A DNA stretch of 34,195 bases from Candidatus Nomurabacteria bacterium GW2011_GWE2_34_25 (GTDB lineage: Bacteria > Patescibacteriota > Minisyncoccia > Phycocordibacterales > UBA9973). The notes beneath the pieces are model-generated. The model made no database searches. It saw only the letters and a list, made by a program, of their open reading frames with translations, and was not told the origin of the DNA. Where the stretch lies: assembly GCA_000990325.1 (NCBI GenBank), contig LBPS01000010.1:1-34195 (forward strand), read 5' to 3'. The position numbers were made by a program, and so were the translations under genes. This document shows, piece after piece, positions 3,853 to 34,195 of the stretch (position 1 is its first letter; every line of letters starts with the position of its first letter).

Positions 3853-3870
3853 ATGATTTTACGAAATCAT
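3853..3870 (-). promoter_or_regulatory. Hairpin abutting the rplI start codon
   Basis: 7-bp stem ATGATTT / AAATCAT with a TACG loop. Its 3' arm on the mRNA ends at the base before the ATG. A second imperfect stem (TGTC.CGC with GCG.GACA) lies just upstream at about 3871-3898. Together they could hide the translation start; this is inferred from pairing only. Confidence 0.4.
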
Positions 3871-3901
3871 GTCGCGCAACCGTCATTTTAGCGAGACACA
3901 A

Positions 3902-5140
3902 TTATTGTTTAGCTTTTAATATTTCGACAGCTTTGTTCATTTGTGGATCACGTTTAGCTTCATAATCTTTGGAAGTTACTGAAACTTTTATATCTGGATC
4001 AAGACCAGAAGTTGAAATTGAAACCCCATTGGGTGTTAGCCATTTTGCTACAGTTACTTTCAAGGATGTATCCCCTGTTATTTCTACAAGTTCTTGTACA
4101 GAACCCTTACCGAAAGTTTTTTCTCCAACCAAGGTGGCTATCTTGTGCTCTTTTAGAGCACCAGCTAAAATCTCTGAGGCAGAAGCTGAACCTCCGTCAA
4201 TCAAAACAACAAATTGCAATTTATCATTGAAGATTCTTGGTCCATGACTGCGATATGATTGAGCCTTACGATTAGCTCCAAAATCTTCATTAACAATAAC
4301 TTTCCCTTCATCTATAAACCATGAACCAATATTGACAGCCACATCTAAATAACCGCCGGGATTTCCTCTTAGGTCAAGGATGAGCTTATGATCTCCTGAT
4401 TTGATAAATTCATCTAATGCTTTTGCGAAAAGATTATCAGAATTTTCTGAAAAACTATAAAACTTAATTAAAAATATTCCATCGGGTAAGGCTTCTGTTT
4501 CTATTGTGGGGATATCGATAGTATCTCTTATTATTTTTATCTCACGAGCTTCTTTTTCTCCTGTACGAAAAATAGTTAAAGTAACGGGCGTACCCTTCTC
4601 TCCACGCATGAGAGTAATGGCCTTATCAACAGATAACTCACTTGTATTTGTCTTTTCTATTTTAATAATTTTGTCTCCTGCTTTTATTCCTGCATTCCAA
4701 GCGGGAGTATTCTTCAAAGGAGCAATAATAGTCAAAACCTTATCCTTCACTCCTACTTCAGCTCCTATTCCACTAAATGAGCCCTTGATCTCTTCTCTGA
4801 AGAGCTTATTGTCCTCTGGACTAAAGAATGTGGTATATGGGTCACCAGTAGCTCCTGCTAGACCTTGTACTGCACCCCAAACACGATCCTGGTCTGTAAT
4901 TTTATCTGAATATATTGACTTATCTTTGAGTACATTCCAAGCCTTCCAAAATGCAGTAAAATCAGCTGTTGTTTCAAAGGTGGGGGTTTTGTTTATGACA
5001 GTTGTAACTTTATCTATTTCAGGTCTATGAGTATATCCAAAATAAAGACCAATACCAAAAACTCCTCCTATAAGTAAGATTGAAACAAGCACATAACCGA
5101 TTCTTTTATAATTTAATTTTATCTGTTTAAATATTTTCAT
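3902..5140 (-). CDS. ctpA: C-terminal processing peptidase, S41 family
   Basis: A 412-residue membrane-anchored, extracytoplasmic serine protease. One N-terminal membrane segment (about 15-36) is followed by the S41 N-terminal helical part, a PDZ domain (about 120-195, FSGIGAEVG ... GIKAGDKIIKI) and the S41 catalytic core. Ser320 in GGSASASEI, Lys345 in FGKGSVQ and Gln349 match the Ser/Lys/Gln catalytic set of CtpB by spacing (25 and 4 residues). LDLRGNPGG at about 256-264 is the usual core motif. Such enzymes trim C-termini of envelope proteins and often regulate peptidoglycan hydrolases, which fits the neighbouring DUF4015-like gene 20 nt upstream. Length is typical and nothing is missing. 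The exact substrate cannot be inferred. Confidence 0.95.
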   Translation of the reverse strand: MKIFKQIKLNYKRIGYVLVSILLIGGVFGIGLYFGYTHRPEIDKVTTVINKTPTFETTADFTAFWKAWNVLKDKSIYSDKITDQDRVWGAVQGLAGATGDPYTTFFSPEDNKLFREEIKGSFSGIGAEVGVKDKVLTIIAPLKNTPAWNAGIKAGDKIIKIEKTNTSELSVDKAITLMRGEKGTPVTLTIFRTGEKEAREIKIIRDTIDIPTIETEALPDGIFLIKFYSFSENSDNLFAKALDEFIKSGDHKLILDLRGNPGGYLDVAVNIGSWFIDEGKVIVNEDFGANRKAQSYRSHGPRIFNDKLQFVVLIDGGSASASEILAGALKEHKIATLVGEKTFGKGSVQELVEITGDTSLKVTVAKWLTPNGVSISTSGLDPDIKVSVTSKDYEAKRDPQMNKAVEILKAKQ

Positions 5141-8584: not shown

Positions 8585-8656
8585 GGCCCTATCGTCTATC
8601 AGTTAGGACACAAGCTTCTCAAGCTTGTAAGCTGGGTGCGATTCCCAGTAGGGTCA
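8585..8656 (+). tRNA. tRNA-Glu (anticodon CUC)
   Basis: 72-nt cloverleaf. The acceptor GGCCCTA pairs with TAGGGTC (one G-U); the D arm TCGTCTA...AGGAC is typical of bacterial tRNA-Glu. The anticodon stem CAAGC / GCTTG has loop TTCTCAA (CTC at the anticodon), and the T stem is CTGGG / CCCAG. Discriminator is A and CCA is not encoded. The T-loop reads TGCGATT instead of the usual TTCGAAT, so the near-universal U at position 55 is G. That is unusual and may affect pseudouridylation by TruB and the D-loop/T-loop contact. It stands alone, with a large palindrome starting at the next base. Confidence 0.92.
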
Positions 8657-8837
8657 CAACGCGCTAAAAATCTGCTCCTACAGCAGATTTTTAGCGTTGT
8701 GAAAGCGCAGTGATATTTTGTTAGTAAACAAAATCACGAGCTGGGGTCGGCAAGTACTTACATTTTTTACAATTTTATGAAGTAAAAAATTTAGTAACTT
8801 GTGACCACGTTATTCTGGCATGCGAAGCATACACATT
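8657..8837 (+). other. Structured non-coding region downstream of tRNA-Glu
   Basis: No plausible gene. Three strong hairpins follow each other. At 8657-8699 the arms CAACGC..CTAAAAATCTGCT and AGCAGATTTTTAGCGTTG pair over about 18 bp with a 2-nt bulge. At 8710-8737, GTGA/TCAC and TTTTGTT/AACAAAA are separated by a 2-nt bulge. At 8745-8806 there is a long stem with GGTC/GACC, CAAGT/ACTTG and ATTTTTTAC/GTAAAAAAT. A terminator follows. It could be the trailer of the tRNA transcript or an independent small RNA; no known RNA family is recognised. Confidence 0.4.
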
Positions 8838-33319: not shown

Positions 33320-33901
33320 TTATTGTTTCTTCAACCAATCTATCATCCTTGAAGTAGTAGTAACACCTGTCTCTCCCGACACTGTTATACCTTGATCCTT
33401 TTGAAATTTAGTTACAGCTGTCACTGTACTCGTTCCATAATCATTGTCTACCCTATTAGAAGTTTTATTATAAATATTCAAAAACTTTTGTACAGAGCCA
33501 ACACTTACCCCTTGAGATCCTTTCTTTAAAATCATTTTACTATTTAGAATTTTCTGGAGCTCGTTTATTAAAGTTTGATATTTTAAGACAGCGGGCTCTG
33601 TAGTAGCAGGATCCTTTACGATTGGCTGTACTGACCCTGCTTGCTTGGTTGCATCTTCTTCAGACGGAGCTTCCTTTGTATTCATTAATTCTTTTTCATT
33701 ATTGGCAACAATTTCTTTTATTTGATTTTTGAGAGCTACAATCTCTTTCTCTAATTCTTTATTCTTATTTTCTAATTCTTTTTGCTGTTGATTACTTAAA
33801 TGATCATCACCAGATTCTATGGTCGAAATCGCCCAAAAACCAATTAGCGATACAATGCCTAGAATTATTATTAATACTAATATTGATTTAAAATTTTCCA
33901 T
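33320..33901 (-). CDS. Membrane-anchored peptidoglycan-binding protein
   Basis: 193 residues. N-terminal membrane segment (about 8-27), a coiled-coil stretch (about 37-70, LSNQQQKELENKNKELEKEI), a low-complexity Thr/Pro/Ala linker (about 75-105), and a C-terminal peptidoglycan-binding domain 1 (PF01471-like, about 120-190): LKKGSQGVSVGSVQKFLNIY, then YGTSTVTAVTKFQKDQGI. Expected to face outward and hold to the wall. No catalytic domain is present, so it is structural or an adaptor. The -10 box TATAAT lies exactly 6 nt before the ATG. Confidence 0.85.
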   Translation of the reverse strand: MENFKSILVLIIILGIVSLIGFWAISTIESGDDHLSNQQQKELENKNKELEKEIVALKNQIKEIVANNEKELMNTKEAPSEEDATKQAGSVQPIVKDPATTEPAVLKYQTLINELQKILNSKMILKKGSQGVSVGSVQKFLNIYNKTSNRVDNDYGTSTVTAVTKFQKDQGITVSGETGVTTTSRMIDWLKKQ

Positions 33902-33916: not shown

Positions 33917-33938
33917 CTAAATGAAAAAAAATTATGTG

Positions 33939-34062
33939 GTGCCGAGACCCAGATTTGACTATTACTTAGTCGGGTATTATTCAAAAAATTATATTAATAA
34001 TTTTAATGAATAATCTTTCAAATCTGGACGCACATGAAGCAGGTCATGTGCTTTCTCGGCAC
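33939..34062. ncRNA. Candidate branched structured RNA
   Basis: Outer stem GTGCCGAGA (33939-33947) / TCTCGGCAC (34054-34062). From the junction rise two arms: CCAGATTTGA / TCAAATCTGG (33949-33958, 34018-34027), capped by nested stems ATTATTCA / TGAATAAT and AAAATTAT / ATAATTTT; and GCACATGA / TCATGTGC (34030-34051). A terminator overlaps its 3' end by 3 nt. Strand is not settled: a terminator follows on plus, and eight T follow shortly after the outer stem on minus. No known family recognised. Confidence 0.5.
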
Positions 34063-34099
34063 AATATAAAAATACCCTAACGGGTATTTTTATATTGTG
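34060..34099 (+). terminator. Strong terminator hairpin at the right edge
   Basis: 18-bp perfect arms CACAATATAAAAATACCC / GGGTATTTTTATATTGTG with a TAAC loop; T5 within the 3' arm. The remaining 34100-34195 holds only small GTGC/GCAC hairpins near 34167-34195 and no gene I can support. Confidence 0.6.
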
Positions 34100-34195
34100 T
34101 GGTTATACGATTCCGCTCGAACCTATTTTATTAAAAACTAATAAATGTATCTCTAGCGTTCCCCGCGTGCTAAAGCACCTCTGTGCAGTAGCACA

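Follow-up and report, generated by a model that had tools for sequence, protein, structure and literature searches.

The window analysed here comprises the first 34,195 bases of a 48,196-base contig (G000:C10) from a genome of 767 kb that is 96.5% complete. Near its right edge lies a strongly folded region, for which a preliminary description had proposed a branched RNA structure overlapping a terminator, free of genes. No ORF of at least 100 aa overlapped it, and all stems were present as described: a 9-bp closing stem (33939–33947 with 34054–34062), two side arms of 10 bp (33949–33958 with 34018–34027) and 8 bp (34030–34037 with 34044–34051), nested stems at about 33976–33983 with 34007–34014 and at 33957–33961 with 33967–33971, an inner AT-rich hairpin, and an 18-bp terminator (34060–34077 with 34082–34099) that is 100% complementary and forms a perfect inverted repeat. 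Bases 34060–34062 are common to the closing stem and the terminator. The folding energy of 33935–34066 was −49.4 kcal/mol (z = −8.43), and inclusion of the terminator lowered it to −66.1 (z = −10.05); folding of the minus strand is equally strong (−66.6; z = −11.3). In each case, 0 of 200 shuffles were as low. No Rfam 15 family overlapped the fold, the gathering-score matches in the window being one tRNA only. Between hsp20 and the fold lies a gene with a peptidoglycan-binding domain (33320–33901, minus strand), for which no counterpart appeared at the site in the relatives examined; its ATG is preceded at about 12 nt by a TATAAT motif, pointing to a nearly leaderless start.

A search of the genome itself revealed that bases 33937–33958 recur exactly at C10:38461–38482, where ARAGORN places the CCA-bearing 3′ end of a tRNA-Phe gene (C10:38461–38536, minus strand). 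This gene lies outside the window edge, 4.5 kb from the fold, and is split from it by an element encoding a serine recombinase (Resolvase, Recombinase and Zn-ribbon domains) together with a 2-kb segment flanked by long inverted repeats. The insertion junctions read ...ATAACCA/CACAATATAA and, at the tRNA, ...GGCACCA/AGACAG, and correspond to the CCA end of tRNA-Phe and the point just before the terminator hairpin. In G005, G017 and G023, which belong to the same genus, the fold lies close 3′ of tRNA-Phe with no recombinase between them, immediately in G017 and some 100 nt away, across a spacer, in G005 and G023; it is followed there by a terminator and then by a convergent hsp20 gene on the opposite strand. 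Thus, the fold is independent of the serine-recombinase insertion. The 22-bp direct repeat had prompted the reading of the fold as attL of the neighboring element, which was ruled out because the relatives carry the fold at tRNA-Phe without the recombinase and because the junction of the serine element lies at the CCA end, before the terminator-like hairpin. The local serine recombinase belongs to a separate insertion and not to the fold unit; it would have inserted later at the CCA end of tRNA-Phe, displacing the fold by 4.5 kb. In each genome, the final bases of the fold repeat that genome's own tRNA-Phe end, and a T-loop variant of G017 is mirrored in its fold. The parts of the window copy are listed in Table 1.

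Table 1. Parts of the window copy of the fold (window coordinates).
Part	Position	Strand	Basis
t, terminator-like hairpin with 18-bp arms; between tRNA and fold in the family	34060..34099	minus	perfect inverted repeat
A′, GTGCCGAGA; complements the tRNA-Phe acceptor 3′ strand	34054..34062	minus	pairs with 33939–33947; own-tRNA match across the family
H, conserved 25-nt hairpin, here AGCACATGACCTGCTTCATGTGCGT	34028..34052	minus	model R1; stem covariation
T′, CCAGATTTGA; complements the tRNA-Phe T-stem and the 3′ half of the T-loop	34018..34027	minus	pairs with 33949–33958; own-tRNA match across the family
Y, type I; two nested AT-rich stems plus one portion of a small hairpin, the 3′ strand of which is inside X2	33959..34017	minus	aligns and covaries with 14 other copies
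X2, repeat of the tRNA-Phe 3′ end including CCA	33937..33958	minus	22-bp exact direct repeat with C10:38461–38482
Start of the separate 4.5-kb insertion (serine recombinase, inverted repeats), outside the fold family	34100..34195	minus	junctions; absent from relatives

Several observations concern the insertion and the tRNA-Phe site in their own right. The serine recombinase gene (L005 4930–6525; G000:C10:36930–38525) runs with its 3′ end into tRNA-Phe. At most of 23 relative loci, homologous recombinase genes adjoin tRNA 3′ ends (Gly, Thr, Arg, Leu, Gln, Ser, Glu), often with encoded CCA, and they constitute a family of recombinase elements with broad tRNA use. The inverted repeats (L005 2097–2360 and 4350–4595; window 34097–34195 and beyond) are long and apparently perfect, each broken by a run of N, and enclose some 2 kb that contains a TrmB-like regulator and two orphan ORFs; no transposase was seen there. 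Another small repeat, ..CTTCAG..AGATAGCCAGTTCAAATCTGGGTCTCGGCAC, which resembles a shortened tRNA-Phe, lies 3′ of tRNA-Phe in G023, G010 and G005 (L066 at about 3870–3940, L068 downstream of tRNA-Phe, and L065).

The fold was found to have many homologues. Weak matches first pointed to copies 3′ of tRNA-Val, -Pro and -His. A pattern of its central hairpin matched 10 of the 297 genomes of the order, again mostly behind tRNA genes, and the reversed control matched none. A covariance model of hairpin H with its flanks (R1) contained 13 double-change cells versus 2.8 in shuffles and matched 23 of the 24 genomes of the genus, with up to 17 matches per genome, the weakest of them, with E near 0.05, being unsafe. 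Nine matches were obtained in the present genome, the best copies at 9.4e-9 to 1.7e-14. Under stricter filters, R1 matched 22 of 380 genomes spread over the phylum. The matches listed when GTDB contigs were scanned came from Elusimicrobiota as well as from many CPR lineages; individual Elusimicrobiota genomes had up to 14 copies. Downstream of an intact tRNA or tmRNA gene (ARAGORN), within 400 nt and mostly within 60 nt, lay 70 of the 89 inspected copies; of the other 19, at least three followed tmRNA, and the others followed tRNA 3′ fragments, tandem units or contig ends. When the 39 tRNA and tmRNA genes of the present genome were inspected, 10 had an H unit directly behind them, tRNA-Phe had the separated window copy, and about five further genes carried H-less relatives, as called by eye. 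The fold in the window is one copy of a multicopy family anchored to tRNA 3′ ends and is best read on the minus strand.

Some individual loci deserve mention. Behind tRNA-Glu(ctc) (window 8585–8656), a degenerate H-less family member with a type II Y was observed at 8657–8830 on the plus strand (GCGCAGTGATATTTTG...CACGAGCTGGGGTCGG...TTGTGACC). At L181 (G005:C7:220054–221301), a tRNA-Arg that has lost its 3′ half directly abuts the element's terminator hairpin. At L099 and L097, copies are followed by genes that resemble defence genes by eye (SIR2-like, DNA methylase-like), as at tRNA integration hot spots.

This arrangement bears on the earlier suggestion that closing stem and terminator compete as in an attenuator or riboswitch, for which the three common bases would speak. 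Since the family is read in the direction of the tRNA, i.e., on the minus strand of the window, the terminator precedes the fold and does not follow it. The overlap is a general feature of the family, as the acceptor-pairing arm comes directly after the terminator hairpin. Moreover, no downstream gene is conserved: the neighbors differ, with the peptidoglycan-binding gene here and hsp20 on the opposite strand in G005, G017 and G023. It is the tRNA upstream, and not a downstream gene, to which the family is anchored and with which the fold is partnered, and the attenuator or riboswitch reading, left unsupported, is very improbable.

The relation between unit and tRNA was analyzed in 146 copies adjoining 42 tRNA kinds; tmRNA is used too. 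In tRNA sense, the unit order is tRNA-t-A′-H-T′-Y-X2. A′ complemented its own tRNA perfectly over 8 nt in 53 of 144 copies (37%), compared with 0.3% for other tRNA kinds, and T′ did so over 11 nt in 71 of 144 (49%), compared with 0.5%. With the register fixed, 67% of the A′ positions paired with the own tRNA versus 43 ± 1.3% for other kinds, and 68% of the T′ positions versus 56 ± 0.9% (1000 permutations). In 77 of 79 clean cases, the tRNA segments targeted by A′ and T′ adjoined each other exactly, and the insertion point of H corresponded to position 65/66. With H between them, the two arms form the reverse complement of the adjoining gene's 3′ end, the break lying exactly between T-stem and acceptor. 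A second copy of the tRNA 3′ end, X2, of at least 12 nt was present in 51% of the copies (0.35% for other tRNAs), mostly 80–150 nt further on. The spacers carry indels, and a T-run was found in the spacer of 110 of the 146 copies. Where tRNA and X2 differ, the arms agreed with the tRNA in a ratio of 95:3, many of these cases lying at the X2 edge, and the arms stay matched to the tRNA even in copies that have lost X2.

In the predicted geometry, A′ and X2 form an acceptor-like stem, T′ and X2 form a T-stem-like helix, H stands in for the D and anticodon arms, and the T-loop is opened by Y. The fold would thus be a mimic of the acceptor/T-arm stack of a tRNA, as far as predicted geometry, not activity, is concerned. 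At least two types of Y exist, and these contain conserved unpaired motifs. In an alignment of type I Y that includes the window copy, the three helices contained 62 double-change cells, compared with 19.2 ± 3.5 in shuffles and at most 7 with the partners slid. Homologues of the fold therefore carry compensatory changes; with these, the lack of an Rfam 15 match and the large family, its designation as the window's best candidate for an undescribed RNA was upheld.

These properties could be those of a host noncoding RNA that is co-transcribed with the tRNA, the 3′ trailer folding in a tRNA-specific manner to regulate or protect the tRNA, e.g., by competing for the tRNA 3′ half (arms with X1, the end of the gene itself) or as a decoy acceptor (arms with X2). 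The covariation and the conserved unpaired motifs argue for such an RNA, as does the preference of the arms for the tRNA over X2, and tandem G·A replacements in T′ hint at RNA. Co-transcription is likely in G017, which lacks a terminator between tRNA-Phe and the fold and has one after it. However, a terminator-like hairpin precedes the fold in most copies. In addition, presence at the same tRNA is patchy in sister species: orthologous tRNA-Phe sites are full, reduced or empty, depending on the species. Also, near-identical Y sequences (up to 95% identity over 60 nt) stand behind unrelated tRNAs, while A′ and T′ differ and fit each tRNA, and units can occur in tandem, with a pair of 141-bp units of the tRNA-Val type behind tRNA-Val in G023. 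A host RNA is a possible explanation, although on balance we consider it unlikely.

The patchy sites, the Y shared between different tRNAs and the one tandem array are the observations from which we infer mobility. At about even confidence, the fold may represent a mobile element of some 100–250 bp that is non-autonomous, anchored to tRNA genes and ORF-free, with a tRNA-like fold. In favor of this reading are also the link to tRNA-Phe, the presence of copies at many tRNA kinds and tmRNA and in multiple copies in CPR and Elusimicrobiota, the arms matched to the own tRNA, H at position 65/66, X2, the covariation and the different Y carried by orthologous tRNA-Gly(ccc) sites. Such a unit would insert at tRNA 3′ ends, duplicating that end (X1 and X2), and would be moved by a protein supplied in trans. 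A′ and T′ would be re-made to match each new tRNA, either by copying of the tRNA during movement or by later selection and correction, and the acceptor/T-arm mimic is probably recognised by the moving or a processing enzyme. A move between tRNAs would leave arms of the old tRNA, and no clear case of arms fitting another tRNA better was found in the 146-copy set; likewise, no circle or recent jump was seen for family units. When the family genomes were compared, no protein followed the copy number, neither the lone Xer-like integrase nor RAYT nor reverse transcriptase. That the arms stay matched where X2 is lost suggests a function beyond movement. A bolder form of the mobile-element reading, that gene-less minimal elements re-program themselves, with the arms around H rewritten to the complement of each new tRNA's 3′ end, and so colonise many tRNA genes with the trans-supplied protein, is offered tentatively and is rather unlikely. 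A phage origin was considered and dropped, with 0 viral-contig matches to the strict 25-nt pattern, a weak test as it used one pattern only.

Two alternatives assign the matching of the arms to a defined process. In the first, the unit is retroelement-like: A′ and T′ would be a split primer-binding site, the tRNA would prime reverse transcription, the arms would be recopied, and the tRNA-linked cDNA would recombine behind the matching gene. The arms do complement the tRNA 3′ end down to the T-loop, as primer-binding sites do, and recopying from the primer would account for their re-matching. Simple copying leaves unexplained why H splits the complement, and reverse transcriptase is absent from the copy-rich genomes G005, G007, G017 and G022 (6–15 matches each), so that it was rejected as a partner; the retroelement explanation is improbable. 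In the second, the unit acts as a DNA hairpin, with template switching (quasi-palindrome correction) keeping the palindromic arms matched and H recognised as a DNA hairpin by a transposase or recombinase. The H stem is almost purely Watson-Crick (98.6%, with 0.8% G·U) and has no clear strand bias, which hints at selection on a DNA hairpin; the G·U to A·C count in H, 11 to 6, was biased by the filter used and gave no guide to the strand. The arms also follow the adjacent tRNA copy over X2. On the other hand, the palindrome is interrupted by H, so correction would have to skip H, and the conserved unpaired motifs in Y, the tandem G·A replacements and the missing correlation with RAYT all speak against it. 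We rate the DNA-hairpin explanation slightly lower still than the retroelement one.

Compared with known systems, the family has its nearest analogue known to us in rtT RNA (Rfam RF00391), the repeats at E. coli tyrT. As in rtT RNA, repeat units stand behind a tRNA gene, may be arrayed in tandem and each repeat the 3′ end of the tRNA; the copy expected of rtT-like units is present, with 22 bp here and at least 12 nt in 51% of the copies as given above. Unlike rtT RNA, the family uses 42 tRNA kinds and has arms that are matched to the tRNA and split by hairpin H. As far as we know, rtT RNA is confined to one tRNA, and no tRNA-matched arms split by a conserved hairpin have been described for it. 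The contig region and 20 family loci gave no match to RF00391 at E up to 1.

Other systems each have one feature in common with the family and fail in another; this applies to integrase att sites, REP elements and primer-binding sites. Integrative elements that target tRNA genes with a tyrosine or serine integrase also insert at the tRNA 3′ end and repeat it, and the direct repeat of this end at both unit ends (X1 and X2) is present. In contrast to them, the family unit measures 100–250 bp, has no integrase or ORF, contains internal tRNA-complementary arms and uses 42 tRNA kinds. No tyrosine integrase was found near the folds, and the genomes mostly have one Xer-like gene each. REP/RAYT systems and the ends of IS200/IS605 resemble the family in their hairpins and in having guide sequences that base-pair to the flank of the target. 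They differ in that the family's guide arms of about 8 and 11 nt are matched to each tRNA and that its copy number is independent of RAYT. A link to RAYT/REP was rejected, as G013 had six RAYT matches and no family match, while G007 and G022 had eight family matches each and no RAYT match. Primer-binding sites of retroviruses and LTR elements, which are split in some yeast elements, are complementary to a tRNA 3′ end and are copied anew from the primer tRNA with every cycle. A′ and T′ share the complementarity to the tRNA 3′ end, but H lies between the arms, the unit stands beside the tRNA gene itself, and there is no link to reverse transcriptase. Finally, tmRNA and minimal tRNA mimics also stack an acceptor stem on a T-stem and have the D and anticodon arms replaced, whereas in the family the T-loop is opened by the large Y domain and there is no tag ORF; the Rfam 15 scan gave no tmRNA match for the fold.

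We know of no class of mobile element or RNA that fits a family with tRNA-specific antisense arms. The full-text literature searched contained no description of the family; an earlier one in closed journals or preprints is possible. Within the same bounds, this kind of element is apparently new. The family represents widespread, apparently undescribed small structured elements in two phyla, the ultra-small CPR bacteria and Elusimicrobiota, and is present at between about one quarter and two fifths of the tRNA genes in a reduced genome. It serves as a warning that unannotated structured elements can lie at tRNA 3′ ends in these genomes. Elusimicrobiota include cultured members and carry the family in multiple copies, which may make tests of its expression and mobility feasible in that phylum. 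The question raised is how so small an element matches itself to dozens of different tRNAs. If mobile, the elements would represent target adaptation without known machinery; if functional, they would form a tRNA-linked RNA layer in CPR bacteria and Elusimicrobiota.
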